From Bacteroidales bacterium (GTDB taxonomy: Bacteria > Bacteroidota > Bacteroidia > Bacteroidales > GCA-2748055): a stretch of 42,518 nucleotides of DNA. The position numbers and the translations under genes were made by a program. The notes under the pieces were generated by a model. That model was not told the DNA's origin, made no database searches, and saw only the letters and a program-made list of their open reading frames with translations. Each line of letters opens with the position of its first letter. The first letter of the stretch is position 1. Where the stretch lies: NCBI GenBank assembly GCA_029210725.1, contig JARGFM010000014.1, forward strand, positions 1-42,518, read 5' to 3'. This document shows, one piece after another, positions 4,798-39,135 of this stretch.

Positions 4798-4902
4798 GCT
4801 GGCAGTTAAATTTTTGAAGAGCAATAAAAGTAATAAATATTTAAAGGATTTGTTATAATTTGCCGGGTGTAATACGTATGTTTGAGCAAATAACTTCTTC
4901 GC

Positions 4903-7790: not shown

Positions 7791-7975
7791 TATTCATCGT
7801 TTTTGGATGTCTTTTTCCCGAGCCACGGGATGGCTCCGGAGAACCACAGCAGCGTACCGATGAACATATAGTTTTTCATCTGTTCTGCTTCTAAAACATC
7901 AAAATAGAACAGGATGGCGGGGATCAGCAACAGCAAAAGGCCTGCAGCTGCAAGCAGGATATAGAAGTACTTCAT
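7790..7975 (-). CDS. small two-helix membrane protein, unknown
   Basis: A 61-residue protein with two hydrophobic segments (about residues 4-25 and 36-52) and a charged KKTSKNDE tail. Its ATG overlaps the stop of the upstream permease by four bases (ATGA), and its stop overlaps the start of the mutase by one, so the frame is protected by coupling on both sides and is very likely translated. It may be an accessory subunit of the permease, by analogy with small proteins encoded beside other secondary transporters. That is inference; I recognise no family. Confidence 0.7.
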   Translation of the reverse strand: MKYFYILLAAAGLLLLLIPAILFYFDVLEAEQMKNYMFIGTLLWFSGAIPWLGKKTSKNDE

Positions 7976-17790: not shown

Positions 17791-19170
17791 ATGGAAAACA
17801 GACGAACTTTTATTAAGAAAACGGCCCTCGGAGCTGCCGGAGTTTCAGTAGGCCTTAGTGCAGTATCTGCCAGATCCTATGGCAGGATCCTGGGTGCCAA
17901 CGAGCGTATTCATATGGGCGTGATCGGACTCCGGGGACGTGGAAAGGACTTAATGCATGGCTTCTCAGAGATGTATGGAGAAGGTGTATTTGTTAAGACG
18001 GTATGTGATGTGGATACTCAATATCATGAAGCATCCAGGGAGCTGGTGGCCAAAAACCAGAAAGGAAGCAAGCCCGATGCAGTGCAGGACCTGAGGAAGA
18101 TTTTTGAAGATCCGGAGATCGATGCAGTGGCCATGGCCACGCCCAACCACTGGCATGCGCTGGGAACTGTATGGGCCTGCCAGGCCGGGAAGCATGTCTA
18201 TGTGGAGAAACCCAGTTCACACAATATCTGGGAAGGAAGAAAAATGGTGGAAGCCGCCAGGAAGTATGATCGTATGGTGCAGGTGGGATTCCAGAACCGC
18301 TCTATTTCCAATGTGATGCAGGCTATGAACTTTATGCATTCCGGAGGGATAGGCGATGTCTTTATGGCGCGTGGGACCTGCTTCAAGCCCAGGGACTCCT
18401 TTGGTATTTCGCCCGATAGTGAAGCCCCTGGAACACTGGATTATGATCTGTGGCTGGGGCCGGCATCCTATCGTCCATACAATGAAAAGAGGGGACATTA
18501 TAACTGGCACTGGCACTGGAATACCGGAAACGGAGATACCGGGAACCAGGGTCCCCACCAGTTCGACATTGCCCGCTGGGGATTGGGAAAGAAGGTACAC
18601 CCGGTGAAAGTGCAGTCCATGGGCGGTATTTTTGGAATCTCTCCCCGGGAGTGTTCCCAGGAGACGCCCAATACCCAGACATCCCTCTTCGAATATGAGG
18701 ATGGAAAGATCCTGGAATTTGAAACCCGGGGACGTTATACCAATAGTGAAGCACCCTCCGGAGTCCGGATAGGAAACCTGTTCTACGGCACCGAAGGATG
18801 GATGGAGATCAACGGATCCAGCTGGAAGGCATACCGGGAACGTGAGGAGACCCCGTTTGCCGGATCTGGCATGGAAGCCACGGATGCAGCAGTTGGCGGA
18901 GACCGGAGCTTTCTGGCTGCCCCGGGTGGCGGAGGACATTTCTCCAACTTCATAGCAGCACTCAGATCGGGCAGGCGCTCCGACCTTACCTGCGATATCC
19001 TGGAAGGTCATATGTCTACCTGTCTGCCACACCTGGGCAATATTGCCTACCGGGTGAGTGAAACCCTTGAATTTAACGGGGAATTTGAGAGCTTTATGGA
19101 TAACCAGCAGGCCAATATGCTGCTTACCCGAAAGTACAGGCATCCCTATGTGATCCCGCAGGTAGTATAA
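17791..19170 (+). CDS. Gfo/Idh/MocA family oxidoreductase, Tat signal
   Basis: A 459-residue exported NAD(P)-dependent oxidoreductase. The leader ENRRTFIKKTALGAAG is a twin-arginine signal. The Rossmann motif GVIGLRGRGKDL is near residue 45, VEKPSSHN supplies the dinucleotide-site Lys near 140, and a NGDTGNQGPHQFDIARWGLG segment holds the likely catalytic His. It sits 60 bp after the GH2 gene and just before a DUF1080 lipoprotein, repeating the oxidoreductase + DUF1080 pairing seen at 2514-4797. The likely role is oxidation of a glycoside or sugar outside the cytoplasm so that the DUF1080 partner can break the bond. Substrate unknown. Confidence 0.88.
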   Translation: MENRRTFIKKTALGAAGVSVGLSAVSARSYGRILGANERIHMGVIGLRGRGKDLMHGFSEMYGEGVFVKTVCDVDTQYHEASRELVAKNQKGSKPDAVQDLRKIFEDPEIDAVAMATPNHWHALGTVWACQAGKHVYVEKPSSHNIWEGRKMVEAARKYDRMVQVGFQNRSISNVMQAMNFMHSGGIGDVFMARGTCFKPRDSFGISPDSEAPGTLDYDLWLGPASYRPYNEKRGHYNWHWHWNTGNGDTGNQGPHQFDIARWGLGKKVHPVKVQSMGGIFGISPRECSQETPNTQTSLFEYEDGKILEFETRGRYTNSEAPSGVRIGNLFYGTEGWMEINGSSWKAYREREETPFAGSGMEATDAAVGGDRSFLAAPGGGGHFSNFIAALRSGRRSDLTCDILEGHMSTCLPHLGNIAYRVSETLEFNGEFESFMDNQQANMLLTRKYRHPYVIPQVV

Positions 19171-21945: not shown

Positions 21946-23277
21946 ATGCTACCCATGAAAAGAAGAGATTTTATCCAGAAAAGCGCGGGCGTTGCAGCCG
22001 CAACAGGACTGATAACTGTACTTCCAGGCACACTGCGTGCAACTTCCCGGATCCTGGGGGCCAATGAAAGAGTCAACGTTGGGGCCATCGGTCTCAACGG
22101 AATGGGCATGTCGGATCTGCGTTCTTTTCTGAAGATGGACGGAGTGGAATGCCTGGCACTTTGCGATGTGGACCGGAATGTCCTGGAGAAACGCGCCGCC
22201 GAGGTGGAGGAGATCCAGGGGAAGAAAGCAATACTTTACGATGATTACAGGAAGTTACTGGAGCATAAGGATCTGGATGCTGTTATTATTGGCACACCGG
22301 ACCACTGGCACACCCTGCCCATGATTGAGGCCTGTCAGGCGGGTCTGGATGTGTATGTGGAAAAACCCATTGCCAATTCCATTGAGGAGATCGATCTGAT
22401 GATTGCCGCGCAGAAGAAATACGGGAGTGTGGTACAGGTGGGACAGTGGCAGCGAAGCGATCCTCACTGGAAAAATGCGGTTGACTTTGTACATAGCGGG
22501 AAACTGGGGAGAATCAGGACCGTGAAAGCCTGGGTTTATCTGGACTGGAAACACTATCTGCCAGTTCAGGCTGACGGACCGGTGCCTGAGGGGGTCGATT
22601 ATGATTTTTGGCTGGGTCCTGCCCCCGGGCGTCCCTTCAATATCAACCGCTTTCATTTTAACTTCCGGTGGTACTGGGATTATGCAGGCGGATTAATGAC
22701 CGACTGGGGCGTACACCTGCTGGATTATGCCCTGTACGGGATGAATGAGTATGTGCCCAATTCGGTGATGTCCTCGGGAGGTAAATATGCCTTTCCGGAT
22801 GATGCCAGGCAGACACCCGATACCCAGTTCGCCATGTATGAGTTTAATGATTTTGCCCTGCTCTGGGAGTCCACCCTGGGAATTGGTCAGGGAAACTACG
22901 GGCGAGAGCATGGGGTATCCTATATCGGAGAGAACGGAACCCTGGTGGTAGACCGTCAGGGATGGGAAGTGATTGCGGAAGCTCCTGAGGGTAAAGCCCG
23001 GATGGAAGCGGTACCCCTTATCAAAAAGACCGGAGCAAGCGGATTGGACCTGCATGTGAAGAATTTCCTGGAGTGTTTGAAAACCAGGGAAACACCCAAT
23101 GCCAGTGTGGAGATCGGGGGACATATTGCCAGGATTGCCCAGCTTGGAAACCTGGCCCTGAGAACCGGGCATAAGATATTCTGGGATGGAGAGAAAGGTG
23201 AGGTGATCGGTGATGAGAAAGCTGCCGCCCTTACCCAGGCCGATTATCGTGCTCCCTGGAAGCTGCCTTCCATTTAA
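21946..23277 (+). CDS. Gfo/Idh/MocA family oxidoreductase, Tat signal
   Basis: A 443-residue exported oxidoreductase. It has a twin-arginine leader (KRRDFIQKSAGVAAATG), a Rossmann segment (VGAIGLNGMGMSDL), VEKPIANS with the dinucleotide-site Lys near residue 141, and GGLMTDWGVHLLDY with the likely catalytic His. ATG 21955 (three residues shorter) is an equally good start. It is a paralogue of the protein at 4903-6228, with matching C-terminal YRAPWKLPS and GPAPGRPFNINRFH segments. It stands without a DUF1080 neighbour, and its stop overlaps the convergent GntR gene by three bases (23275-23277 against 23274-23276). Confidence 0.87.
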   Translation: MLPMKRRDFIQKSAGVAAATGLITVLPGTLRATSRILGANERVNVGAIGLNGMGMSDLRSFLKMDGVECLALCDVDRNVLEKRAAEVEEIQGKKAILYDDYRKLLEHKDLDAVIIGTPDHWHTLPMIEACQAGLDVYVEKPIANSIEEIDLMIAAQKKYGSVVQVGQWQRSDPHWKNAVDFVHSGKLGRIRTVKAWVYLDWKHYLPVQADGPVPEGVDYDFWLGPAPGRPFNINRFHFNFRWYWDYAGGLMTDWGVHLLDYALYGMNEYVPNSVMSSGGKYAFPDDARQTPDTQFAMYEFNDFALLWESTLGIGQGNYGREHGVSYIGENGTLVVDRQGWEVIAEAPEGKARMEAVPLIKKTGASGLDLHVKNFLECLKTRETPNASVEIGGHIARIAQLGNLALRTGHKIFWDGEKGEVIGDEKAAALTQADYRAPWKLPSI

Positions 23278-23987
23278 AACCGGCCGGTTAGGCTGTAATC
23301 ACTTGTATTGCAGAATATCTGGCTGAAAAAGGAGAAACCCACGCGATTGGTCTCCATTTTCCGGTCGATCCGGAGGATGGGATGGTCCCTGGCAACAGCA
23401 AAATGTTTCCGGATCCTCTCATCGGCGGTAATGGCCTGTATCTTTTGTTCCCCCCCTTTTACCTCCAACTGGTAGTTTTTCCTGAGAATTTCGAAGAGGG
23501 AGCGGTTTTCAAAGGTCCGGGAGGTAAATCTGGGCAGGTTCAGGTTGGGAATCATGGTGATATCATAGAATACCGGACGGTCATTTATCAGTCTCAGGCG
23601 TTCCATATAGATACAGCCCATGCTCTTCTCCTGTTCGCTTAATTCAAAACCAAAGGCCTGCTCCCAGCGGATGATTTTTGGTTTTACAATGATCCGGGTA
23701 GTCAGGTTTTCCTGGCCGATGGCAGAAGTGGTTCCGGTCAGGGAGAGGATTCCGATCCCTTTGGACTGTCCCTGGACGATGGAGCCCAGGCCCTGGTGCC
23801 GGAGGATGAAACCCTCGTTTACCAGCATATCCAGGGCCTTGCGCACTGTGGGGCGCGTCAGGTGGTGGGCAGCACACAATTCATTTTCGGACGGAAGCAG
23901 GTCCCCCCGCTTGTAAGTGCCATCCTCCATCAGTTTACGCAGCTTTTCATACAATCTCCGGTAGGAGGGAACTTCTTTTAGAGCCAT
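23274..23987 (-). CDS. GntR regulator, HutC/UTRA type
   Basis: A 237-residue transcription factor. Residues ~8-72 form the winged helix-turn-helix (LLPSENELCAAHHLTRPTVRKALDML, then the wing RHQGLGSIV). Residues ~90-235 form a UTRA/chorismate-lyase-like effector domain (RLRLINDRPVFYDITMIPN, FENRSLFEIL). HutC-type GntR proteins sense sugars, sugar phosphates or amino-acid breakdown products. It is divergent from the E2/E1 operon, and a perfect 16-bp palindrome with the HutC-type GT-n-TA-n-AC core lies just after that operon's -7 box. Local repression of the operon is therefore likely, with an imperfect palindrome at its own promoter for autoregulation. Confidence 0.88.
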   Translation of the reverse strand: MALKEVPSYRRLYEKLRKLMEDGTYKRGDLLPSENELCAAHHLTRPTVRKALDMLVNEGFILRHQGLGSIVQGQSKGIGILSLTGTTSAIGQENLTTRIIVKPKIIRWEQAFGFELSEQEKSMGCIYMERLRLINDRPVFYDITMIPNLNLPRFTSRTFENRSLFEILRKNYQLEVKGGEQKIQAITADERIRKHFAVARDHPILRIDRKMETNRVGFSFFSQIFCNTSDYSLTGRF

Positions 23988-24003
23988 GGTTCCGAAACAC
24001 TGG

Positions 24004-24023
24004 ATTTGTAAATATCCACAAAT
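24004..24023. promoter_or_regulatory. imperfect palindrome at gntR promoter
   Basis: ATTTGT (24004-24009) and ACAAAT (24018-24023) form an inverted repeat around 8 bases, 17 bases upstream of the GntR start. It overlaps a minus-strand TATATTTG (24019-24026), an exact match to the Bacteroidota -7 box TAnnTTTG. Possible autoregulatory site. Confidence 0.35.
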
Positions 24024-24158
24024 ATAGTTGTAAATATATGTATATGGAAATATTTTACCAATACTTCTTAATATAATGACATAAAAAATTATAAATCAAT
24101 AATATATGTAATTATCACTTTCATTGGATATTTTATTTTTATATTCAGAAAAAGCTAT

Positions 24159-24166
24159 TATATTTG
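24159..24166 (+). promoter_or_regulatory. Bacteroidota-type -7 promoter element for the E2/E1 operon
   Basis: TATATTTG exactly fits the TAnnTTTG -7 consensus of Bacteroidota primary sigma factors. It lies 49 bases before the E2 ATG in a very AT-rich intergenic region. A good -33 TTTG is not evident at the expected distance. The same octamer occurs on the other strand for the divergent GntR gene. Confidence 0.5.
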
Positions 24167-24167
24167 C

Positions 24168-24183
24168 ACTTGTATATACAAGT
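24168..24183. promoter_or_regulatory. perfect 16-bp palindrome, probable GntR operator
   Basis: ACTTGTATATACAAGT is its own reverse complement. Its core GTATATAC fits the HutC-subfamily operator pattern GT-n-TA-n-AC. It begins one base after the -7 box, covering the transcription start region, an ideal place for repression. Confidence 0.65.
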
Positions 24184-24214
24184 AATACTTTTAACCCTTA
24201 TAAAGCATAATCAA

Positions 24215-25543
24215 ATGGCCCATGCAGTTATCATGCCCAGGCAGGGACAGTCCGTAGAGAGTTGCATTCTCACCGAATGGTATAAGGCTGTGGGGGAAAG
24301 CATCTCCAGGGGAGACCTGCTGTTTGCTTACGAAACAGATAAGGCCGTCTTTGAAGAGGAGGCTCCTGAGGATGGAATCCTGCTGGCCCGTTTCTATGAA
24401 GAGGGTGACGAGGTGCCTGTATTGCTGAATGTGGCAGTGATCGGAGCCGAGGGGGAAGCTTTTGAAACATTCCGGCCGGAGGAGTCTTCAGGCAGCAGGA
24501 TGGAGCCTGCTTCCACAGGCCCCTTTACGGAAGCTGTTTCCCTATCTCAGGCAGTGAAAGATGCTTCCTCCATTTCCCCCAGGGCCCGGAAGCTGGCCCG
24601 GGAGAAACGGGTTGTCCTGGAAGGGGTGTCAGGCACCGGTCCCGGTGGGCGGATTATCGAGCGGGATATTGTGGAAGCAATCAGGCAGGGTAAACGACTC
24701 ACTCCACTGGCTCAAAAGAAAATGGAGGCCGGGGGACTGACGGTCTCCTCTGACTTTCCCGGCTGCGGAAAGTATAAGGTGGAAGATCTGGTCTCACCCT
24801 CTTCAGATCCCCACCCACGGTCTGTCAGTCAGGGAACGGGCTCCTTTTCGGATGTACCTCTCAGTAATGTCAGAAAGATCATTGCCGGTGCCATGCACAG
24901 GTCCTTGCAGAATTCGGCTCAGCTTACTCACCATCTCAGTGCCAATGCCTCTGCCATGTTGCAGCTGAGGCGAGAGGTAAAGCTCCGGCTGGAGGGTGGC
25001 TATCCCTGCAACATCACCCTGAACGATATGGTCTGCTACGCGCTTATTCAAAGTCTCCTGTTGCATCGCGGAGCCAATGCTCATTTCCTGGGGCAGCATA
25101 TCCGGATCTTCGAACAGGTAAATCTGGGTCTGGCCGTTGATACGGATCGCGGATTGATGGTTCCGGTCCTGTTAAACGCCGATCGTTATAACCTGCCGGA
25201 ACTCTCGGTCAGGCTGAAGGAAATCGCCGGCAGTTCCAAAAAGGGAAGTATTTCTCCCGACCTGATTGTGCCGGAAGCAGCCACTTTCACCGTATCTAAC
25301 CTGGGCAACTATGGGGTGGAGATGTTTACTCCGCTTATAAACCTCCCCCAGGTAGGGATCCTGGGTGTGAATACCATTATTCAGCGACCCGCTATCCTGG
25401 CCGACGGAACATTTGCTTTCCAGCCTTTTATCGGATTGTCCCTGACTTATGACCACCGGGCACTCGATGGTGGACCGGCCACCCTGTTCCTGGCCGAGAT
25501 TAAAAAGCAGATCGAGCAACTTTCCCCCGATCTTCTCAGATAG
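24215..25543 (+). CDS. 2-oxo acid dehydrogenase E2 (dihydrolipoamide acyltransferase)
   Basis: A 442-residue core subunit of a 2-oxoacid- or acetoin-dehydrogenase-type complex. The lipoyl domain (residues 1-80) has the lipoyl Lys43 in YETDKAVFEE. The peripheral subunit-binding domain lies at ~120-155 (SPRARKLAREKRVVLEG, GTGPGGRI). A second stretch at ~163-193 (TPLAQKKMEAGG) looks vaguely like a degenerate copy. The acyltransferase domain ends in SLTYDHRALDGG, with the catalytic His at 414. I chose ATG 24215, since the upstream in-frame TTG would start inside the -7 box. It is the first gene after the GntR operator and is followed 38 bases later by fused E1. No E3 (lipoamide dehydrogenase) gene is present. 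Confidence 0.9.
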   Translation: MAHAVIMPRQGQSVESCILTEWYKAVGESISRGDLLFAYETDKAVFEEEAPEDGILLARFYEEGDEVPVLLNVAVIGAEGEAFETFRPEESSGSRMEPASTGPFTEAVSLSQAVKDASSISPRARKLAREKRVVLEGVSGTGPGGRIIERDIVEAIRQGKRLTPLAQKKMEAGGLTVSSDFPGCGKYKVEDLVSPSSDPHPRSVSQGTGSFSDVPLSNVRKIIAGAMHRSLQNSAQLTHHLSANASAMLQLRREVKLRLEGGYPCNITLNDMVCYALIQSLLLHRGANAHFLGQHIRIFEQVNLGLAVDTDRGLMVPVLLNADRYNLPELSVRLKEIAGSSKKGSISPDLIVPEAATFTVSNLGNYGVEMFTPLINLPQVGILGVNTIIQRPAILADGTFAFQPFIGLSLTYDHRALDGGPATLFLAEIKKQIEQLSPDLLR

Positions 25544-25581
25544 ACATAGCTTTACATAACGAAAACCTATAAACCATTCCC

Positions 25582-28050
25582 ATGCCAAAGAAACAATATA
25601 TCAACCCGTCGGAGCTCAGGCAGAGCCAGGTCCTGGAACTGGGTTCCATTCCCGTAAACAGCTACCGCAGATCGGTCAAAGATGAGCTGTCGGGTTTCTC
25701 CGGGGAAGATCTGATCCGTATTTACCGGGATATGCAGATTATCAGGGAGTTTGAGAGTATGCTGAACCTGATCAAGACCACCGGGGAATACAAGGGGATC
25801 AGTCATTCCCATCCCGGTCCGGCTCACCTCTCCATCGGGCAGGAAGCAGCGGCGGTGGGCATGGCTTATAAGCTGGGTATCGATGATTATATTTTTGGCT
25901 CGCACCGCTCTCACGGAGAAATCCTGGCCAAAGGGCTTTCTGCCATTCAGAAGCTGGATGAGGATAAGCTCTACGGGATCATGAAGGATTTTTTTGATGG
26001 CCGCATCCTGGGTATCGTAGAGAAAGGACATCAGGGTGATATCAGGTCACTGGCTCTTAAATTCCTGGTATACGGCACCCTGGCCGAAATTTTTGCCCGG
26101 GAGACCGGTTTTAATAAGGGACTGGGCGGCTCCATGCACGCTTTCTTTACGCCCTTTGGGATTTATCCCAACAACGCCATTGTGGGTGGTTCGGGCGATA
26201 TTGCCGTTGGAGCGGCACTCTATAAGAAAGTGAACCGGAAACCTGGCATTGTGGTGGCAAATATTGGTGATGCATCCCTGGGATGCGGTCCAGTATGGGA
26301 AGGAATGACCTTTGCAGCCATGGACCAGTTCAGGGAGCTGTGGGAAGGGGATATGAAGGGCGGTTTGCCGATCATTTTCAATATTATGAACAACCAGTAC
26401 GGCATGGGGGGACAGACCTGCGGGGAAACCATGGGATATGCCATAGCAGCCAGGGTGGGAGCAGCTCTGAATGCGGAGAAGATGCATGCAGAGCGTGTAG
26501 ATGGATACAATCCCCTGGCGGTGATCGATGCCTATGAGCGGAAGATGAAGATCATTGAAGAGAAAAAGGGTCCGGTCTTTCTGGATGTGCTGACCTACCG
26601 CTACAGCGGGCACTCTCCGTCCGACTCCTCCTCTTACCGCTCCCGGGAAGAGGTTGAGGCATGGGAATCGGTCGATTCCATTGTCTCCTATGGCCGGGAA
26701 CTTATGGATGCCGGCCTGGCCGCTCAGGCAGATCTGGATCAGATCAAGGCAGCCTGCGATGAGCTCATCATGGATGCATTTAAACTATCCATTGATGATC
26801 AGCTGTCTCCACGAATGGACCTGATCTCCAATCCCGGTCTGATCGGGGAGATGATGTTCTCCAACCAGTCCGTCGACCGCATGGAGGAGGGAGTTCCCGA
26901 AGTGAACCACCCCATGGAGGAGAATCCAAGGGTCATACAAATTGCCCGAAAAGAGAGATTTGCCTTTGATAAGGAGGGCCGGGCACATTCGGCCATGAAA
27001 CAGTACCAGTTCAGGGACGGGCTCTTCGAGGCCATCATCGATCGCTTTTACAAGGATCCGACCCTGGTGGCCTACGGGGAGGAAAATCGTGACTGGGGAG
27101 GAGCCTTTGCGGTATACCGGGGACTCACCGAGGCCCTGCCCTATAACCGGCTTTTCAATTCTCCCATTTCGGAAGGGGCCATCGTGGGTACCGCCATTGG
27201 ATATGGCATGTGCGGGGGGCGGGTTATTCCGGAGATCATGTATTGTGATTTCCTGGGGCGTTCCGGCGACGAGGTTTTTAACCAGTTGCCCAAGTGGCAG
27301 GCCATGAGTGGAAATCTGATTAAAATGCCGGTAGTGCTGAGGGTGTCGGTAGGTTCCAAATACGGGGCCCAGCACTCCCAGGACTGGTCCTCCCTGGTGG
27401 CCCACATACCAGGGATCAAAGTGGTATTCCCTGCCACCCCCTACGATGCGAAGGGCTTGATGAATGCCGCCCTGCAGGGAACCGATCCGGTGATCTTTTT
27501 TGAGAGCCAGAGGCTGTATGGCATCGGGGAGGAGTTCCATAAGGAGGGTGTTCCGGAAGGATACTATGAGATCCCCATTGGCGAACCCGATATCAAACGA
27601 AAAGGGGAGGATATTACCATCCTGACCATCGGAGCCACCCTGTACCGCGCCATGAAGGCAGCCGGTACGCTCCAGGAGAAATACGGGATGTCGGCAGAGA
27701 TTATTGACGCCCGCTCCCTGGTACCCTTCAATTACGATCTGGTCCTGAGTTCCTTGAAAAAGACGGGTCGCATTGTCCTGGTCAGCGACGCCAGTGAACG
27801 GGGATCCTACCTGAAGGATGTGGCCCAGAACATTACAGAACTTGCTTTTGATGACCTGGATGCCCCGCCGGTAGTGGTGGGTTCGCGGAACTGGATAACC
27901 CCTGCCTATGAGCTGGAGGATTATTTCTTTCCTCAGGCTTTCTGGATTATCGATGCTATTCATGAGAAGATCGTACCTTTAAAGAATCATGTATGCTCCC
28001 AGAACTTTACCAGGGGCGAACAGTTGCGAAGAAGCAGGCTGGGGGTTTAA
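25582..28050 (+). CDS. fused E1 alpha-beta thiamine-diphosphate dehydrogenase
   Basis: An 822-residue protein joining both E1 subunits of a 2-oxoacid dehydrogenase complex, which decarboxylates or cleaves a keto substrate and passes the acyl group to E2. The alpha part (~40-450) has GSHRSHGEILAKG, GGSMHAF, the thiamine-diphosphate motif from GDAS (229) to NN (270-271), and a SGHSPSD phosphorylation-loop-like segment. The beta part (~473-800) has YGEENRDWGG, NSPISEGAIVGTAIGYGM and VLVSDASERGSY. It lies directly behind the matching E2 gene. The insert between the halves and the N-terminal ~40 residues make it longer than many fused Bacteroidota E1 proteins. The acyl donor is unknown; the alpha half also resembles acetoin dehydrogenase. 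Confidence 0.9.
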   Translation: MPKKQYINPSELRQSQVLELGSIPVNSYRRSVKDELSGFSGEDLIRIYRDMQIIREFESMLNLIKTTGEYKGISHSHPGPAHLSIGQEAAAVGMAYKLGIDDYIFGSHRSHGEILAKGLSAIQKLDEDKLYGIMKDFFDGRILGIVEKGHQGDIRSLALKFLVYGTLAEIFARETGFNKGLGGSMHAFFTPFGIYPNNAIVGGSGDIAVGAALYKKVNRKPGIVVANIGDASLGCGPVWEGMTFAAMDQFRELWEGDMKGGLPIIFNIMNNQYGMGGQTCGETMGYAIAARVGAALNAEKMHAERVDGYNPLAVIDAYERKMKIIEEKKGPVFLDVLTYRYSGHSPSDSSSYRSREEVEAWESVDSIVSYGRELMDAGLAAQADLDQIKAACDELIMDAFKLSIDDQLSPRMDLISNPGLIGEMMFSNQSVDRMEEGVPEVNHPMEENPRVIQIARKERFAFDKEGRAHSAMKQYQFRDGLFEAIIDRFYKDPTLVAYGEENRDWGGAFAVYRGLTEALPYNRLFNSPISEGAIVGTAIGYGMCGGRVIPEIMYCDFLGRSGDEVFNQLPKWQAMSGNLIKMPVVLRVSVGSKYGAQHSQDWSSLVAHIPGIKVVFPATPYDAKGLMNAALQGTDPVIFFESQRLYGIGEEFHKEGVPEGYYEIPIGEPDIKRKGEDITILTIGATLYRAMKAAGTLQEKYGMSAEIIDARSLVPFNYDLVLSSLKKTGRIVLVSDASERGSYLKDVAQNITELAFDDLDAPPVVVGSRNWITPAYELEDYFFPQAFWIIDAIHEKIVPLKNHVCSQNFTRGEQLRRSRLGV

Positions 28051-28064
28051 AACCGGAAGAACTG

Positions 28065-29279
28065 ATGAGTTATTTAAAGCAGTTTCCCAAACAGCTTTCC
28101 CTGTTGAATTCCTACCAGGCGGCTAAGCCTCTCCGGGCTTTAAAGGTCAACAACCACATTCATACTCCCTGTTCATTCAGTGCATTCGGAAGCATGGAAG
28201 AGGCCGTTAAGATGGCCGGAGAAGAAGGTGTCAGGATATTGGGAATCAATGATTTTTATGTGACTGACGGCTATGGGGAGTTTATTGAAAAGTGCCGGAA
28301 GTACCGGCTCTTTCCCCTCCTGAATGTGGAGCTTATCGGTATCAGCAAAGAGGAGCAGGAGGCAGGAATCAGGGTGAATGATCCCAGTAATCCGGGGCGG
28401 ACCTATATCAGTGGCAAGGGACTGGCATTTCCCTCCATACTTCCTGCAAGCCAGCAGGAGAAATTAAACAGGGTGGTCCTTGAGAGTAATAAGCAGGTCG
28501 AAAAGATGATCGGTCTGCTTAAGGCCTGGCTGGAGTTTCAGAGGACCGGCATCTCCATTTCGGTGGAAGGGATCATGAAGGAACATGCCCTTCATTTGCT
28601 CCGGGAGAGGCATGTGGCCAAAGCCTTGCGGCTGAAGCTTGAAGCAGCATCAGCAAATGATGATTCCTTTTATAAACTGCTGGAACGGGTTTATGGCGGC
28701 CTGCCCACTGAAAAAAAACGTGAAGATATTGCCGGCATCGAGGAGGAACTTCGGACCAGGCTGCTGAAGGCAGGATCCCCCGCTTTCGTGCCGGAAGATG
28801 AGAAAGCCTTTTTAAAGCTGGATGAGATTATGGAGATCATCAGAGCTGCGGGCGGGATCCCTACCTATCCCATGTTGCTGGATGGGGCCGGGAGCGGGAT
28901 CACTCCCTTTGAGAGTGACCGGGTGAACTTGCTGAGTGTGCTGAAAAAGTGGGGCTTTAATTCTGTGGAGCTGATTCCCCTGCGCAACAGGGCAGAGGTT
29001 TTAAAGGAGTACGCCGGATACTTCTATGAGAATGGCTTTGTGGTTTCCTTTGGAACCGAGCATAATACAACAGCCATGAGGCCCCTGACGGTCAGCTGTA
29101 AAAACGGCGTAGCCCTGGAAAACAGTCTGCTTGAAATATCCTTTAATGGTGCCGCCTACCAGGCAGCGCATCAGTACCTTACGGCTCAGGAAGGTCCGGC
29201 TTACAGGCCCTTGCTGCGTGATCAGATGGAGGAACTGGGAAGGGCGGTACTGAATCACTATTTTAAAACAACAGAATAA
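28065..29279 (+). CDS. PHP-domain protein, unknown substrate
   Basis: A 404-residue protein with a PHP (polymerase and histidinol phosphatase) metal-dependent hydrolase fold. The first metal motif is VNNHIHTPCSFSAFG (HxH, residues ~30-32), followed by GINDFYVTDGY and a C-terminal FGTEHNTTAM holding further metal ligands. A helical insert lies between. ATG 28065 is preferred; an upstream start would overlap the E1 end. PHP proteins are usually phosphoesterases, so it may remove a phosphate from an intermediate of this operon. It is cytoplasmic, with no signal sequence. The location between E1/E2 and sugar-phosphate dehydrogenases is distinctive. Confidence 0.78.
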   Translation: MSYLKQFPKQLSLLNSYQAAKPLRALKVNNHIHTPCSFSAFGSMEEAVKMAGEEGVRILGINDFYVTDGYGEFIEKCRKYRLFPLLNVELIGISKEEQEAGIRVNDPSNPGRTYISGKGLAFPSILPASQQEKLNRVVLESNKQVEKMIGLLKAWLEFQRTGISISVEGIMKEHALHLLRERHVAKALRLKLEAASANDDSFYKLLERVYGGLPTEKKREDIAGIEEELRTRLLKAGSPAFVPEDEKAFLKLDEIMEIIRAAGGIPTYPMLLDGAGSGITPFESDRVNLLSVLKKWGFNSVELIPLRNRAEVLKEYAGYFYENGFVVSFGTEHNTTAMRPLTVSCKNGVALENSLLEISFNGAAYQAAHQYLTAQEGPAYRPLLRDQMEELGRAVLNHYFKTTE

Positions 29280-29286
29280 AACCAAT

Positions 29287-30471
29287 ATGATGGAACAGAA
29301 AAAAGAAAGTGTCCTTGCACTGGTTCCCGCCATCCGGATGATTTTGTCTGAAAATGCTCTGAAGAGTGGAAGCTTTGTACTGCTGGATCAACTTACCGAA
29401 CGCGATCCCGAAAAGATCACCATTCGCCTGGGACGCACCATTTCGGTATTCAGGGGGGAGCCTGAAGAGCTTCTGAAACAGATTGAAGCTTCCAAAGCGG
29501 ATATCGGAGAGTATATTTTTATCGAAGAGCTTGGACTGCTGGGCCTGTCTTCCAATAAATCCAAGGTAGAGCAGAAGCTGGCCACGGTCCGCAAGGAGGG
29601 CCGGGGGGCCGGACTTCCCGAGGCGGTGGCTTCGCCCCAGTCTCGTAAACCTCTTTACAATAAAGTGATAGCCATAACCGGAGGAGCCATGGGCTTTGGG
29701 GAAGGCATAGCCCGGCAGCTGTTCGGAGAAGGGGCCAATGTGGTCATTATGGATATCAACAGGCAGGAGGGAACGCGTCTGGCAGGGGAGCTGAACCAGC
29801 ACAGGTCGCCTAACAGAGCCTGGTTTATTGAGGCGGATGTAAGCAGCCTGGAGTCCATGGAGCAGGCGGTATATGAGACGGTCCTGGAATTCGGAGGATT
29901 GGATGTGATGATCAGCAACGCCGGCGTGTTAAGGGCCGGAGCCATTGACGAGCTGGAAGAAAGTGAGTTCGATCTGGTGACCGGGGTCAACTACAAGGGC
30001 TATTACAACAGTGTAAAAGCCGTGGTCCCCGTCATGAAGCTGCAGAACAGGTTCTCGGGCGATAACTATGGCGATATCATCCAGATAAACTCCAAATCGG
30101 GTCTGGAGGGAAGTAAAAAGAATTTTGCCTATTCGGGCAGCAAATTTGCAGGGATCGGACTGACTCATTCCTTTGCCATGGAACTGATCGGCGACAGGAT
30201 CAAGGTCAATGCCATTTGTCCGGGCAATTATTTCGAAGGGCCCCTGTGGTCCGATCCGGAGAAAGGGCTGTTTGTTCAGTATCTGAAAGCAGCCAAGGTC
30301 AGTGGTGCCAAAACAATCATGGATGTGAAACGTCATTATGAGTCCATGGTTCCGGCAGGGCGAGGATGCAGGGTGGAGGATGTGGTGAAGGCTATTAAAT
30401 ATGTGATCGACCAGGAGTATGAAACGGGACAGGCCATTCCGGTAACCGGCGGACAGGTCATGCTAAGTTAA
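29287..30471 (+). CDS. SDR dehydrogenase, sorbitol-6-phosphate-2-dehydrogenase-like
   Basis: A 394-residue protein. Residues ~125-394 are a classical short-chain dehydrogenase: cofactor loop TGGAMGFGEG (131-140), NAG (211-213), catalytic Ser269 in QINSKSG, and Tyr282/Lys286 in YSGSK. The segments IIQINSKSG, GSKKN, GIGLTHS, PAGRGCRVEDV and VTGGQVM closely follow E. coli SrlD, which oxidises D-glucitol-6-phosphate to fructose-6-phosphate. Residues 1-125 are an additional domain not found in SrlD. Its EELGLLGLSSNKSKVEQK part faintly recalls the end of class II aldolase domains in bifunctional aldolase-dehydrogenases. It pairs with the sorbose-1-phosphate-reductase-like gene downstream. Confidence 0.82.
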   Translation: MMEQKKESVLALVPAIRMILSENALKSGSFVLLDQLTERDPEKITIRLGRTISVFRGEPEELLKQIEASKADIGEYIFIEELGLLGLSSNKSKVEQKLATVRKEGRGAGLPEAVASPQSRKPLYNKVIAITGGAMGFGEGIARQLFGEGANVVIMDINRQEGTRLAGELNQHRSPNRAWFIEADVSSLESMEQAVYETVLEFGGLDVMISNAGVLRAGAIDELEESEFDLVTGVNYKGYYNSVKAVVPVMKLQNRFSGDNYGDIIQINSKSGLEGSKKNFAYSGSKFAGIGLTHSFAMELIGDRIKVNAICPGNYFEGPLWSDPEKGLFVQYLKAAKVSGAKTIMDVKRHYESMVPAGRGCRVEDVVKAIKYVIDQEYETGQAIPVTGGQVMLS

Positions 30472-30480
30472 GGCAGAGGA

Positions 30481-31131
30481 ATGAAAATCGAAGGAATTAT
30501 TTTTGACCTGGACGGAACACTGATCCATACCATTGAAGATATTGCAGGGGCGGCCAATGAGATGTTTGCCAGGCACGGACTGCCCGGACATGATCTGGAT
30601 TATTATCTGAAATGGATCGGGAATGGCGCCGTGAAGTTTGTTGAGAGGGCGCTGGGGGAACCGGTCGGTGAGAAACAGCTAAGGGCCTATGTGTCGGAAT
30701 TTAAGGAGATCTATGCAGAGAACCTGCACGACAGGAGCCGGGTATATGAAGGGGTCCCGGCTATGCTGGATAAGCTGGTGGATCATAGGATTAAGATTTC
30801 TGTGCTTTCAAACAAGCCTCATCTGCTGACCCGTAGGGTATGTGAGTTCTACCTGTCTTCATGGCCCTTTGATCCAGTACTGGGCCAGCGTGAGGAGGTG
30901 CACCGCAAGCCCGATCCGGCAGCAGCATTTGAGATTGCAGAACAATGGGGGATGGCCTCTGAAAAGATCCTTTTTGTGGGAGATTCGGACAACGATATCC
31001 TTACGGCACAGGCTGCAGGAATGGTTCCCCTGGGGGTCACCTGGGGCTATGGCCGGCTGGCCGGCACACCGGTGGAGGGAATGGGAGAGTTAATTAGTGA
31101 TCCGGCCCGGATCCTCGATTTTATATCCTGA
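30481..31131 (+). CDS. HAD hydrolase, phosphoglycolate-phosphatase-like
   Basis: A 216-residue cytoplasmic phosphatase of the HAD family. Motif I is FDLDGTLIHT, motif II is VLSNKPH, motif III is the Lys in HRKPDPAAAFE, and motif IV is FVGDSDNDILTAQAAG. Overall it resembles Gph, with the usual small helical cap. It is 9 bases after the SDR gene and overlaps the frame but not the preferred start of the dehydrogenase that follows. In this operon it may remove phosphate from a sugar- or polyol-phosphate (inference). Confidence 0.87.
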   Translation: MKIEGIIFDLDGTLIHTIEDIAGAANEMFARHGLPGHDLDYYLKWIGNGAVKFVERALGEPVGEKQLRAYVSEFKEIYAENLHDRSRVYEGVPAMLDKLVDHRIKISVLSNKPHLLTRRVCEFYLSSWPFDPVLGQREEVHRKPDPAAAFEIAEQWGMASEKILFVGDSDNDILTAQAAGMVPLGVTWGYGRLAGTPVEGMGELISDPARILDFIS

Positions 31132-31144
31132 TAAACACGAGTCT

Positions 31145-32413
31145 ATGAAAACCAAGGCGGTCCGCTTATATGGCAAAAGAGATTTGAGGATGGAAGAGTT
31201 TGAACTACCTGCCATTCAGAAGGATGAAATCCTGGCAAAGGTGGTCAGTGACAGCCTGTGCATGTCTTCCTACAAAGCGGCCATCCAGGGAACAGCCCAT
31301 AAACGGATTCCTGATGATGTTTCAGAGAACCCGGTGATTATCGGGCATGAATTTGCCGGAGAGCTTGTGGAGGTGGGGGCCAGGTGGAGCGGGCAGTTTA
31401 AGGCGGGGGATAAATTTGCCATCCAGCCGGCGCTTAATTACCCGGACGGACCGGTGGGAATCCTGGGGGCCCCCGGTTATTCCTATCAGTTTCTGGGAGG
31501 GGATGCCACTTATGTGGTGATTCCCAGGGAGGTAATGGAAATGGGCTGTCTGCTGGTTTACAAGGGTCCTGGCTATTACCAGGCATCCATGGCGGAGCCT
31601 TATTCCTGCGTTATCGGGGCCATGCATGCCAACTACCATATCAAGCCCGGCACCTATGTCCACGACATGGAGATTGTGGATGGCGGAAAAATGGCCATTC
31701 TGGCCGGGGTGGGGCCGATGGGACTTGCTGCCATCAGCTATGTACTGAACCGTCAGGACCGGAAACCCTCCTTACTGGTGGTCACCGATATTGATCCGGA
31801 GCGGCTCAGGCGGGCCGAAGAGCTTTTTCCTCCATCCATGGCCCTGGCCCGGGGTATCGGCTTGCACTACGTAAATACAGGTATGCTCAGCGATCCCGCG
31901 TCTTATATCAAAGGCCTCAACAAAGGGGAGGGCTACAATGATGTATTTGTTTTTGCCCCGGTCGCCTCTGTCGTTGAAGAGGCCGATAAATTGCTGGCTT
32001 TTGATGGCTGCCTGAACTTCTTTGCGGGTCCGTCCGACCCGGATTTCAGTGCAAAACTGAATTTCTACAACGTCCACTATGCCTATACCCATATAGTGGG
32101 AACCAGCGGAGGGAATACGGACGATATCAGGGAGTCGCTGGCTTTGATGGAGAAGGGGATGGATACATCCGGACTGATCACTCATATCGGGGGACTGGAT
32201 GCCGTGCCGCAGGCAACCCTCAACCTTCCTGAGATATCCGGGGGCAAAAAGCTGATTTATACGCACATTGAGCTGCCTCTTACGGCCATTGCCGATTTCA
32301 GGAAACTGGGTGAAAGCAAGCCTCTGTTTCGCAAACTGGCCGATATCTGCGACCGGTACGGCGGACTTTGGTCCGTAGAGGCGGAAGAACTCTTGCTATC
32401 CGAAAAACCCTAA
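31145..32413 (+). CDS. zinc-type MDR dehydrogenase, L-sorbose-1-phosphate reductase-like
   Basis: A 422-residue medium-chain dehydrogenase. The N-terminal catalytic domain carries SLCMSSYKAAIQGTAHKRIP and IIGHEFAGELVEVG, the pattern of the SorE L-sorbose-1-phosphate reductase group. It lacks the four-Cys structural zinc loop. The Rossmann domain has AILAGVGPMGLAAISY followed by an acidic VVTDIDPERL. ATG 31145 is used because the longer frame would run into the preceding HAD gene. SorE turns L-sorbose-1-phosphate into D-glucitol-6-phosphate, and the SDR in the same operon resembles the next enzyme, so the two may act in series. A terminator follows at 32432-32472. Confidence 0.82.
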   Translation: MKTKAVRLYGKRDLRMEEFELPAIQKDEILAKVVSDSLCMSSYKAAIQGTAHKRIPDDVSENPVIIGHEFAGELVEVGARWSGQFKAGDKFAIQPALNYPDGPVGILGAPGYSYQFLGGDATYVVIPREVMEMGCLLVYKGPGYYQASMAEPYSCVIGAMHANYHIKPGTYVHDMEIVDGGKMAILAGVGPMGLAAISYVLNRQDRKPSLLVVTDIDPERLRRAEELFPPSMALARGIGLHYVNTGMLSDPASYIKGLNKGEGYNDVFVFAPVASVVEEADKLLAFDGCLNFFAGPSDPDFSAKLNFYNVHYAYTHIVGTSGGNTDDIRESLALMEKGMDTSGLITHIGGLDAVPQATLNLPEISGGKKLIYTHIELPLTAIADFRKLGESKPLFRKLADICDRYGGLWSVEAEELLLSEKP

Positions 32414-32474: not shown

Positions 32475-34746
32475 TCAACGCTCCAGCTTTACAATAATAT
32501 AGGGCGTTTCAACATTAAAATCAGGATACATGCGGCCATAACCATTCGTATTCATCACTTCAAGGAAATACATAAAATCGTATTTTTCATCCATTTCCCC
32601 GGCCGGGACGGTGGCCTCATAGGAATCGCTCCCTGCTTCGGGGGTCATGTCTAAAGTCTTGTAATCCAAATGCTGGTTCACAGAGCGGTAGCGGAGCCGC
32701 ACCCATCGGATCCCTGAAGGAGCAGTGACAGTCGCCCGGATGGTGATGTTTTCATTCAGGGGGGCTGTTCTGACTGCCTGATGTTGAATCTGGAACAAAG
32801 CCCGGGGATCATGTTCAGGAGCTGCCTGGTATAAGGGAGCCGTTCTGGCTGTCTTTTCCATACCTAAGGTACTTCTTTGGGATTTAAGTTTTTCCAGTCC
32901 GTTCTCAAGGTAGCCTAATTCATCCCTCCAGTGTCCGGTAAGATGATGGTGAATGTCCATGAATAAGTATTCCTGTACCCCCATCTTAATATCGGAAGCA
33001 TAGATATCAGCTGTGGCGGCCACTATATTTTCCCAGGCTTCAATGGCTTTGCTTTCGTAAGCAATGGCATCATCCAGGGCATGCGGATCGCCGGTACGTT
33101 CAAAGATGCAATAAGAAACCGCGGCAGGAATCCTGCGGGAATGAAAGAGGGCCAGGTTGGAAAGAATGCTCAGGTCGCACAGGGTGGACTGGAATTCCTT
33201 GTTCTGATTGCCTGACAGCTCAAGCCTGGCCTTGCCCATGAGTTCTTCAATCTCCTGATGTCTTTGAAGGAACCACAAGGACGTGGTTGAAGGCAGTGTT
33301 TTAACACTTGCTCCATTTTCGATAAGCAGTTTTGCCTCTGTATAAAAGCTGGCAAACTGCTGTATATCAATTCCTTCAGCATTGGCAACTGGGGCAGATC
33401 ACCAAAGCGTTGCATCTCTGCCCAGCCCATGGTGGTGGGGAATTTCCCGTAGGGAGCACAGGCTGCCATCACTCTGGGCAGAATGGCACTGGCCTTGTGA
33501 AGCGCTTCCTGAATATGGGGTCCCGCTTCCTTGCCAAAACGATGATTAAATTCCCGGATCCAGACTTCCGGAGAGGTGTCCGGATTATAGGAGAGACGGC
33601 CAAATACCTGAAAGAAATGCCAGTAGCGCTCGAACTCATAGTCGTAGTACCTGTAAGGAAGGTTCAATAAATCAAAGGGTTCTTCATCATGGGGCTGGGC
33701 TTCCATTTTAGTGGCCAGAGGTTCATTGATTTCGAAACCGACTCCATCGTACAGGTGGGTGCTTTCAGAAAAACGCCGCACATATCCGGGGTCGCCCCAA
33801 AGGAGCACTCGCTGGGTTCCACCGCTCCAGAGGCGCCAGAGGATTTTGTATTCTTGCGGATACCGGAGCATATCTGCATAGCCATGCCTGCGCTCTAATT
33901 GATTTTCCCGGTTAATATGGGTCGGATGGAAGGGGAGACCAAGCTGCTCCATCCAGTATTTAGTGGTGACCGTAAAGTCCAGCTTCAGTTCTCTCGCAAT
34001 TTGAATAATGGATTCCGGCAGTTCTTTGGCCCGCAGTTCGACCTGGAGTCCGGGTGCTGTCGCTTTCATCATTCCAAACACTTCGGTCCAGAATATTTCC
34101 ATCTCTTCTCCCCTTTTCAGGCCCGACTCATTATGCATTCTCAGCGGTTCTTTGCCAGCATGTCCATGTAGCCGGCCCAATAAGCCTCATCGTAGAACCG
34201 GCTTTCCCAGTAGGCACGATTCATGGTATACAGGGAAACAGCCCGGGTGCTAACATCAGCTTGCTCAAAGGTGTCTTCCAGTTCATTGAACGGGGCTTTG
34301 ATATCATTGCTCCATTGCAGGCATTCTGCTGCATCCAGGAGGGAATACATTAATCCACGGTCATCATATCCTGTCAGTACCCAGGCCGCTTTCCCCCGGA
34401 TCTCCATATTCCAGATAGAAAATGCTTCGGGCAGCTCCGGTTTTTGCCTTTTTGTATCCGACAACAACTTTGCAGCTTCGCCCGTCCCACCGGATAAGCC
34501 GGCTACCACGAGGATTTCACCCCGGGCTTTGCTTAAATCACTGACTTTCTCATAGGAAATATTATTCTGATCCAGCTGGGAGGAAAGTTTTGCAATGCCA
34601 TATTCTACAGGACTACCATATGTTTCATCTGTAATAATTGATATGCCCGGGATCTGATTACCGGTTCATGCGGCAAGGCCGCTTAAAAAAAGTAAACAAA
34701 GGAAGGCCAGACTTATCCCGTTCAGAACCTTAGCTATCCTTTCCAT
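32475..34746 (-). pseudogene. secreted glycoside hydrolase (alpha-glucuronidase-like), broken
   Basis: Remains of one lipoprotein glycosidase gene. From ATG 34746 there is a clean signal peptide (SLAFLCLLFLSGLAA) whose lipobox Cys codon reads TGA (34666-34668). The frame then continues sensibly through GYDDRGLMYSLLDAAECL and AYWAGYMDMLAKNR to about 34144. There a deletion removes the first half of the barrel and shifts frame to MHNESGLKRGEEMEIFW. That frame runs to about 33391, where a one-base loss in a G/C run moves it again (continuing NAEGIDIQQFASFY) to the end at 32475. RVLLWGDPGYVRRF and WAEMQRFGDLP resemble large alpha-glucuronidase-like enzymes. Exact family uncertain. No functional product is expected. 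Confidence 0.8.
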
Positions 34747-34799: not shown

Positions 34800-35777
34800 T
34801 CATGGCTTAATATTAGTATATTTTCCCGGCATAATATTCTTTCTGTAGGCCCCGGGCGATACTTTCATGGTACGGCTAAAGATCCGGGTGAAATAATACC
34901 GGTCGGAGAACCCGCAGGCCGCGGCAATCTGGTCGATGCTCAGGTCGCTGTGATGTAGCATGTTGCAGGCCTTTTCCACGCGCATGCGAACCAGATATTT
35001 GTGGGGAGAATAGACCGTTTGTTGCTTGAACAGTCTTGCAAAGGCATTGACCGACATGCCTCCCCTTTGTGCAAGAAGCTTGTTGCTTATCTCTGTATCC
35101 CTGATGTGTTGCTCCATATACCGGATACCCTGCAGAATTCTGCGATCCAGCTTCTGCTTTTTCCAGGTGGTCGAAGGCAACTGGTGAAGCAGGGAGAAGA
35201 GCAGGGAGTATAACTCCAGGCTGCCGGTCTGTTCAAACCTGACCTGACCGGCTATAAGCTGCCTGCTTATTGACATAAGCAGTTTACGCTGCAGCGAAGA
35301 GTTTTCGAAGACAAAAATATCCGGTGAAATGGTATCATAGGGGTAGCCCAGGGTAAAATGAATGAACATATGCAGAACGGTTCCCTTCTCCAGCATGGCT
35401 TTTTCCATGGCCCTGCTTTCGACCCGTCCGCCTCTGAGGGAATAGGGCTGACCGGGCGGGACCCTGGAGTGATCGATATCTGAAGCAAAGGGTGTGTTCG
35501 GGGGGATCAGTACCAGCCTGTCAGCATCCAGGTAAATTGTTTTATTGTACACAACCCAGGCTCGTCCCGAACGGTTCCAGTACAGCCTCCAGTATGGAAA
35601 GGACATTTGCTGGCTTTTCCATTCAGACATCCACCAGTACCTGCAGCATAAGAGTCTTGGCAGGACTTCCTGAAATTCCTGGATCCTTCCTGAGGGATCG
35701 CCTTCCGGGGGTATTTCCTGGAACCTGAACATGGAGGAAATGGTTGGTTTGTACACAAAACTAAGAGAATTTTCCAT
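34800..35777 (-). CDS. AraC-family regulator, probable fucose regulator
   Basis: A 325-residue transcription factor. The N-terminal part (~1-210) is a sensing domain (FPYWRLYWNRSGRAWV, DADRLVLIPPNTPFASDI). Residues ~225-318 form the double AraC helix-turn-helix, with LAQRGGMSVNAFARLFKQQT and IDQIAAACGFSDRYYFTRIF. The ATG at 35777 lies only 50 bases from the start of the divergent fucK, so the two share a promoter region, and control of fucK-fucI is the natural inference. A GDPSGRIQEFQEVLPRLL stretch near the N-terminus is not typical and may contact the inducer. Confidence 0.85.
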   Translation of the reverse strand: MENSLSFVYKPTISSMFRFQEIPPEGDPSGRIQEFQEVLPRLLCCRYWWMSEWKSQQMSFPYWRLYWNRSGRAWVVYNKTIYLDADRLVLIPPNTPFASDIDHSRVPPGQPYSLRGGRVESRAMEKAMLEKGTVLHMFIHFTLGYPYDTISPDIFVFENSSLQRKLLMSISRQLIAGQVRFEQTGSLELYSLLFSLLHQLPSTTWKKQKLDRRILQGIRYMEQHIRDTEISNKLLAQRGGMSVNAFARLFKQQTVYSPHKYLVRMRVEKACNMLHHSDLSIDQIAAACGFSDRYYFTRIFSRTMKVSPGAYRKNIMPGKYTNIKP

Positions 35778-35827
35778 TTAAAAGGCTTATAATCCTTTCT
35801 ATCTTGCAGATTCATGTAGTCCGGGAA

Positions 35828-39099: not shown

Positions 39100-39135
39100 G
39101 AGCAGAGGGAATCAGTTCTGTTTCCCTGCCTGCTC
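39100..39135. terminator. bidirectional hairpin between fucI and the sulfatase gene
   Basis: GAGCA (39100-39104) pairs with TGCTC (39131-39135), and GGGAA (39107-39111) with TTCCC (39122-39126), giving an interrupted stem between two convergent genes. T-rich tails are short. Confidence 0.4.

Follow-up and report, generated by a model that had tools for sequence, protein, structure and literature searches.

The window analysed here, a stretch of 42,518 nucleotides from a Bacteroidales bacterium (contig JARGFM010000014.1), carries an operon of six genes that encode the E2 and fused E1 components of a thiamine diphosphate (TPP)- and lipoyl-dependent complex, a PHP-family protein, a SrlD-like short-chain dehydrogenase/reductase (SDR), a HAD phosphatase and a SorE-like medium-chain dehydrogenase/reductase (MDR). 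The computed results are the gene set and its conservation, its link to the isomerases FucI and RhaA, its rarity together with RhaD, FucO or a FucI-linked aldolase, and the enzyme families. As judged from the sequences, the operon is very probably linked to the use of L-fucose and L-rhamnose, and it probably replaces the canonical lower branch of these pathways. We further propose, stopping a little short of calling it probable, that the operon forms the lower part of an L-fucose/L-rhamnose route in which a specific E1/E2 chemistry would take the place of the aldolase/lactaldehyde branch. For this route we infer all substrates and the reaction order.

Gene set and its association with L-fucose and L-rhamnose genes

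The first-pass annotation of this DNA had described six closely spaced genes on one strand, and all six plus-strand frames and the divergent GntR gene were verified in the window (Table 1). The intergenic gaps are 7-38 bases once the starts of E2, PHP and MDR are refined. Starts were refined by inspecting the region upstream of E2 and the PHP alignment, and ATG 24215 was taken for E2 since a start at the listed TTG 24164 would make the E2 frame run across the operator. The annotation also held that a joint pathway would fall if the gene set was not conserved together in other genomes. The conserved-neighbourhood search that it had suggested showed that the set recurs across many families of the order and also beyond its phylum. 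Of the 247 genomes in the window's order, 35 encode E1 (at least 68% identity). Neighbourhoods were fetched for 28 of the 35, with some stretches stopping at contig ends; a 29th genome, G000, is the window itself (L denotes fetched loci, G genomes of the window's order and C contigs of the genome in question). The 28 neighbourhoods contain E2 (26), PHP (22), SDR (21), MDR (20), a GntR relative (20), an E3-type gene (11) and HAD (7), which removes the objection.

When the SDR was used as query, a scan of genome contigs returned 32 loci. An E1 match lies in the same locus for 22 of them, and the E1 of L044 is only 36% identical. The E1-bearing SDR loci span Bacteroidales, Cyclobacteriaceae, Oscillospiraceae (Bacillota), Atribacterota, Fimbriimonadaceae and others. 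The clearest locus is that of G629 (L069), where FucI (C5:125338), an L-fuculokinase scoring over its cut-off, FucU, an MFS transporter and AraC- and GntR-type regulators continue into E2-E3-E1-PHP-SDR-HAD-MDR and then an enzyme of the fructose-6-phosphate aldolase (FSA)/transaldolase type. The SDR of G629 is not a fusion, and a search of this genome (99% complete) for class II aldolases at E 1e-8 found none. The genes of L071 lie on a single strand in the order E2-E3-E1-PHP-aldolase/SDR-MDR-RhaT-RhaA-kinase, with 308 bases ahead of RhaT. In L081, E2 is preceded within its gene run by a gene of the transaldolase type. A pyridine-nucleotide-disulphide oxidoreductase between E2 and E1 in L041 was taken as a putative E3. 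Both L079 and L088 have E1/E2 with the dehydrogenases not beside them. Enzymes of the FSA/transaldolase type occur in or beside L069, L073 and L081, transketolase in or near L023 and L026, and KdsD-like isomerases in or near L029, L073 and L085; these would fit a small sugar phosphate as product.

The loci also hold other genes. A mannitol-1-phosphate 5-dehydrogenase-like gene was observed in or near L016, L023, L026, L029, L030, L085, L090 and L091, directly 3' of E1 in several of the loci that carry it. In L044, a myo-inositol-1-phosphate synthase gene (7320-8636) is flanked on one side by the divergent fused E1 (36%) and on the other by a pair of aldolase-SDR and MDR genes. URO-D-family proteins are found beside fucose-linked clusters in L034 (522-1628) and L066 (17745-18989).

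The association with sugar genes was counted in the same 247 genomes by tests that ignore shared ancestry. RhaA or FucI is present in 33 of the 35 genomes with E1 and in 43 of the 212 without it (Fisher p 1e-17, phylogeny uncorrected). For RhaA the counts are 30/35 and 26/212, and for FucI 24/35 and 28/212; the two genomes with E1 and neither isomerase are G528 and G560. Among genomes with RhaA, a RhaD-type aldolase was found in 3 of 30 with E1 versus 22 of 26 without E1 (p 1e-8, phylogeny uncorrected), as counted at E 1e-40, where no match reaches the cut-off of the model. Two of the three exceptions, G400 (L079) and G614 (L078), have no PHP and SDR beside E1 in the fetched stretch, and the third, G457, has the complete gene set. 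FucO over cut-off was found in none of the 33 isomerase-containing genomes with E1 versus 18 of the 43 without it. Similarly, among the 150 class II aldolase matches listed, none is within 10 kb of FucI in the 24 genomes with FucI and E1, and 13 of the 28 with FucI and no E1 have one at this distance.

The first-pass annotation had left the substrate open and seen no sugar kinase. The latter holds between 23274 and 32413, but beyond these positions an FGGY kinase is followed by FucI. The kinase scored 425 bits with the rhamnulokinase model (cut-off 528) and 112 bits with the fuculokinase model. The kinase, FucI, RhaA, a relative of alpha-L-fucosidase on the same contig beyond the window (78% identity to its counterpart in L020) and the 247-genome association point to L-fucose and L-rhamnose as the substrates. 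Searches of the own genome for RhaD (E 1e-40) and FucO (E 1e-60) gave no match. The class II aldolases encoded there are the 373-aa protein beside RhaA and two proteins named by reading the sequence, one FucA-like (C9) and one AraD-like (C3). The canonical combination of RhaD or FucA beside an isomerase with a lactaldehyde reductase in the genome was not found there. The contig of the window (C14, about 51.2-53.9 kb, L093) also encodes a 902-aa protein that is 91% identical to the fucosidase neighbour in L020 and has an 89% relative in L021.

Enzyme families and a proposed aldolase-free route

Domain models showed that E1 has the TPP domains and E2 the lipoyl, E3-binding and acyltransferase domains of a TPP/lipoyl complex. 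The beta part of E1 can be aligned with E1 beta chains of solved structure, and the alignment extends across the region of the catalytic His. By eye, E2 keeps what we take to be the lipoyl-lysine motif and E1 the presumed TPP motifs and beta-chain QHSQ, and with these motifs retained the complex looks competent. E1 scores under the cut-offs of the pyruvate dehydrogenase models that it matches. The fused E1 is strongly conserved (mean column identity 74% over 17 rows), and its structure model has a mean pLDDT (predicted local distance difference test) of 79. The idea that E1/E2 is simply the only pyruvate or branched-chain dehydrogenase of the cell, which the annotation had named as a threat to its pathway, was rejected, as the own genome encodes pyruvate:ferredoxin oxidoreductase (PFOR) at C18 and additional E1 proteins on C5, C7 and C12, those on C5 and C7 being 23-30% identical to the operon E1 in the aligned parts.

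The MDR shares 51.3% identity with its best plasmid match, 50.8% with a gene product annotated YggP and 49-50% with three proteins annotated SorE, in alignments that cover 99% of its length; the next matches are at 44% (Lactiplantibacillus, beside a phosphotransferase system (PTS) of the sorbose type) and then 28%. The full-length similarity to SorE/YggP is thus well above that to other MDRs. For the SDR, the top NCBIfam model is sorbitol-6-phosphate dehydrogenase (NF009050) with 204 bits, under the cut-off of 307. The structure model of the PHP protein has a mean pLDDT of 88, and its nearest folds are RNase AM and other PHP phosphoesterases; the fold search at E 0.001 returned PHP phosphoesterases and the PHP parts of DNA polymerase III, and nothing else. 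As a query against 395 genomes of the phylum, the PHP protein returned its own copy and five weak matches only.

In L-sorbose and D-glucitol catabolism, SorE reduces L-sorbose-1-phosphate at C2 and SrlD oxidises glucitol-6-phosphate at C2, a sequence that leads from ketose-1-phosphate to hexitol phosphate to ketose-6-phosphate. The annotation had suggested that dehydrogenases of these types act on ketose or polyol phosphates before E1/E2 cleaves the product as acetoin dehydrogenase does. We favour the same reading, with a chemistry that we infer. An isomerase and a kinase would form L-fuculose-1-phosphate or L-rhamnulose-1-phosphate, and the SorE-like MDR would reduce the C2 ketone of this ketose-1-phosphate to give a 6-deoxyhexitol-1-phosphate. 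The SrlD-like SDR would then oxidise C5, placing the carbonyl beside the methyl group, so that the compound, numbered from the other end, would be a 1-deoxy-ketose-6-phosphate. The hydroxyl to be oxidised is predicted by Fischer derivation to be oriented, in both sugars, as SrlD accepts it in glucitol-6-phosphate. The TPP-dependent E1 would attack this methyl ketone (CH3-CO-CHOH-) in the manner of acetoin dehydrogenase, the acetyl group would pass through lipoyl-E2 to acetyl-CoA, E3 would make NADH, and the remainder would leave as a tetrose-4-phosphate and go onward via sugar-phosphate metabolism. Because the two ketose-1-phosphates differ only at C4, which would become the aldehyde carbon after cleavage, fucose and rhamnose would converge on one tetrose phosphate. 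By Fischer derivation this would be D-threose or L-erythrose 4-phosphate, depending on the face that the MDR uses. Such a carbonyl transposition, with thiamine/lipoate cleavage of a 1-deoxy-ketose-6-phosphate to acetyl-CoA and tetrose-4-phosphate and the merging of both sugars, is a serious possibility that we hold tentatively.

To our knowledge, this would be the first complex of the 2-oxo-acid-dehydrogenase type with a sugar phosphate as substrate, and if true it would in effect be a CoA-dependent counterpart of phosphoketolase. Among the open-access papers listed by the literature searches, no title or abstract opening was seen to describe the pathway. Mucins, algal fucoidan and plant pectin contain much fucose and rhamnose, and genomes are usually read as converting these sugars through lactaldehyde to 1,2-propanediol or lactate. 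If the proposal is true, such predictions would be wrong for these lineages, whose products would be acetyl-CoA and tetrose phosphate. A textbook enzyme complex would gain a new class of substrate, and the gene set found in several phyla would be explained.

Evidence weighed among the alternatives

Several observations weigh against the aldolase-free route. Of the 32 SDR loci, ten have no E1 match (L027, L031-L033, L035-L037, L039, L040 and L045, some of them short), and seven of these ten have no MDR either; the SDR of L045 is merely 28% identical. RhaA is on the contig of E1 in five genomes (within 16 kb) and FucI in four (three within 12 kb, one at 116 kb). At least 17 of 78 genomes, 15 of them with E1, have a class II aldolase of two domains, as counted by frame length (the frame in G437 is cut); thus absence of RhaD is not always absence of an aldolase. 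Thirteen of the 30 genomes with E1 and RhaA have neither the two-domain aldolase nor RhaD. Sub-cut-off matches to the FucO family occur in eleven genomes with E1. G489 probably keeps the lactaldehyde branch, since its FucO-family match on C10 (495 bits, cut-off 523) adjoins a two-domain aldolase. G629 is not unique, as no class II aldolase was found at E 1e-8 in G552 either, which has FucI and no E1; the same search was negative in G630, a genome without E1 that is 65% complete. The window's genome itself has the unlinked FucA-like protein at C9. As to the chemistry, the E1 model falls below a pLDDT of 50 at several loops, including those with the catalytic motifs, PHP and HAD would trim or recycle phosphorylated intermediates in roles that are guessed, and the predicted D-threose or L-erythrose 4-phosphate would not be a standard pentose-phosphate intermediate.

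The architecture of the SDR adds to these points. In L025, L030, L036 and L037 the SDR makes up the C-terminal half of a longer protein, joined to a class II aldolase-like N-terminal half, and sequence matches indicate the same fusion in L027, L032, L039, L040 and L044. Among the 21 SDRs of the order's loci, 15 are fused in this way; six (L066, L068, L069, L073, L081 and L087) and that of the window are not. In the window, the aldolase-like half is a separate protein in the rhamnose operon. The glutamate and three histidines that we take to be the class II aldolase active site are intact by eye in the fusion rows and in this 373-aa protein, except in L038, whose frame we think is misread. All six genomes with a non-fused SDR have FucI, and G535, G545 and G437, with RhaA and no FucI match, have a fused one. 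The N-terminal extension of the window's SDR, which had been described as an additional domain, reads in the alignment as the shortened middle domain of the aldolase-SDR fusions, and a new domain was rejected. AraD-like C4 epimerase chemistry exists in the class II aldolase superfamily, and it is possible that the class II domain is a C4 epimerase linking rhamnulose-1-phosphate and fuculose-1-phosphate.

With these fusions and metal-site residues, the suggestion that the SDR handles lactaldehyde, made in the annotation as an alternative, survives as the main rival, ranked below the aldolase-free route. Cleavage of the ketose-1-phosphate to dihydroxyacetone phosphate and L-lactaldehyde would then fall to a class II aldolase, be it the fused domain of relatives, a two-domain aldolase or the 373-aa protein at 11705. 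The SDR would convert L-lactaldehyde to lactate as in RhaEW, and E1/E2 would be a co-regulated pyruvate dehydrogenase through which the carbon reaches acetyl-CoA. The aldolase half adjoins RhaA in the window, and the fused relatives L025, L030 and L037 are distantly related to RhaEW (219-264 bits, cut-off 568), for which both activities were measured with proteins of two species (PMC3870299). On the other hand, the SorE-like MDR and the PHP protein would be left unexplained, the fucose-linked cluster of G629 has its non-fused SDR in a genome without a class II aldolase match, and PFOR and other E1s are already present in the window's genome. The SDR of the window has no aldolase domain and scores 124 bits with the RhaEW model (TIGR02632), under its cut-off of 568. 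A tree of 60 rows places the 51 operon SDRs in one starred set, which also contains E. coli SrlD, and four RhaEW C-termini in another. This grouping with SrlD, apart from RhaW, is support and not proof, because the tree carries a long-branch warning, the SrlD branch is 4.81 and two SorD proteins fall outside. Taken together, we consider the lactaldehyde reading unlikely; its weight is raised, and that of the aldolase-free chemistry lowered, by the predominance of fused SDRs in the order and by G489 and G552.

It is also conceivable, and we think rather improbable, that the operon serves 6-deoxyhexoses with E1/E2 cleaving another alpha-hydroxy-ketone or keto-acid, for example the product of an aldolase or epimerase, while MDR and SDR act elsewhere. 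The association with RhaA and FucI is independent of the order of reactions, and the extra enzymes differ among loci (MtlD-like, aldo-keto reductase, FSA/transaldolase type). However, the SorE/SrlD pair would already yield a suitable methyl ketone with no further step. More remote still, and in our judgement very improbable, is catabolism of the sorbose/sorbitol type with E1/E2 merely co-located, as the names of the dehydrogenases might suggest. The MDR and SDR do match the SorE and SrlD families, but annotated sorE-type genes adjoin sorbose PTS genes, whereas the partners here are FucI or RhaA, FucU, RhaT and fucosidase. No PTS gene was seen among the neighbours run through Pfam, in which no search was aimed at PTS genes. 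A sorbose/sorbitol operon of the PTS type was set aside as unlikely.

Two-domain class II aldolases were also seen in rhamnose-linked clusters directly after the MDR (432 aa; L070 2717-4015 and L086 18447-19745) and near RhaA in other genomes, where they may be an alternative rhamnulose-1-phosphate aldolase.

Regulatory elements, neighbouring genes and comparison with known systems

The annotation had described a single promoter/operator and one terminator. The former is borne out by a palindrome upstream of E2, which is the single match in the window at up to three mismatches (0.05 expected) and occupies a single place in the own genome at up to two mismatches. The element TATATTTG just upstream of it is of the TAnnTTTG type, which we take to be the Bacteroidota -7 element. 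Of the 26 fetched order loci that have E2, 23 carry an operator-like site (up to three mismatches) upstream of this gene, and L086, L088 and L089 do not. As the operator is unique in the genome and conserved upstream of E2, the GntR regulator seems to act on this operon alone. For the terminator there is only a weak hairpin just past 32413, 3' of the last gene, with a GC-rich stem of 5-6 bp, a long loop and then five U; 17 of 200 shuffles fold equally well, and a consensus terminator scan did not list it.

Table 1. Operon, operator and sugar genes of the window
Feature	Position	Strand	Basis or remark
Palindromic operator ACTTGTATATACAAGT, perfect, 16 bp	24168-24183		Promoter-like element TATATTTG at 24159-24166
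GntR/HutC-type repressor, GntR and UTRA domains	23274-23987	-	Domain models
E2, lipoyl, E3-binding and acyltransferase domains	24215-25543	+	Domain models; start chosen by us
E1, fused alpha-beta TPP subunit, 822 aa; E1_dh, Transket_pyr and Transketolase_C	25582-28050	+	
PHP-family protein	28065-29279	+	Start (about 28065) chosen from alignment
SrlD-like SDR with N-terminal remnant of the middle domain of the aldolase-SDR fusion	29287-30471	+	
HAD phosphatase	30481-31131	+	Top NCBIfam model phosphoglycolate phosphatase, under cut-off
SorE/YggP-type zinc MDR (L-sorbose-1-phosphate reductase family)	31142-32413	+	Sequence identity
AraC-type regulator beside kinase and FucI genes	34800-35777	-	Named from translation
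FGGY kinase, rhamnulokinase/L-fuculokinase type	35804-37294	+	Profile scores
L-fucose isomerase FucI	37302-39083	+	1046.7 bits, cut-off 850
L-rhamnose isomerase RhaA	10380-11708	+	Over cut-off in two models
Aldolase-like half (373 aa, class II) of the fusion known in relatives	11705-12826	+	
FGGY kinase, rhamnose operon	12977-14347	+	Profile/domain matches

A relative of the AraC-type regulator (72-74% identity) adjoins the kinase in L016. Between the operon and this regulator, on the minus strand (32475-34509), the overlapping frames 32475-33278, 33170-34180 and 34141-34509 resemble pieces of one gene, probably broken or affected by assembly errors; frame 32475-33278 has a weak match to an alpha-D-galacturonidase model. 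Also on the minus strand, beside the fucose genes (39135-41645), an 836-aa protein has GlcNAc 2-epimerase and sulfatase domains in one chain. Four Gfo/Idh/MocA oxidoreductases are encoded in the window (3319-4824, 4903-6228, 17791-19170 and 21946-23277).

With the canonical FucI-FucK-FucA and RhaA-RhaB-RhaD pathways and FucO, the system shares the isomerase, the FGGY kinase, FucU or RhaT/MFS transport and the sugars. It differs in that, in the 35 genomes with E1, RhaD is rare, FucO over cut-off is absent and none of the 150 class II aldolase matches listed is within 10 kb of FucI, while MDR, SDR and E1/E2 are present instead. RhaEW (TIGR02632/NF006189; PMC3870299) resembles the system in the fused aldolase-like domain of 15 of the 21 order SDRs and in the linkage to rhamnose. 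The operon SDRs, however, stand apart from RhaW and score under the RhaEW cut-offs, MDR, PHP and E1/E2/E3 are added, and the SDR of the window is without the aldolase part. With L-sorbose/D-glucitol catabolism (SorE, SorD/SrlD), the operon has in common the reductase family and a SrlD-like dehydrogenase, but it has a kinase rather than a PTS, 6-deoxyhexose partners and a TPP/lipoyl complex. Finally, acetoin dehydrogenase and the TPP-lipoyl 2-oxo acid complexes have the same E1 alpha and beta parts and a lipoyl-E2 with an E3-binding domain, and an E3-type gene is found in 11 of the 28 operon loci. Unlike in these complexes, the fused E1 here is tied to deoxyhexose genes, and its proposed substrate would be a sugar phosphate.

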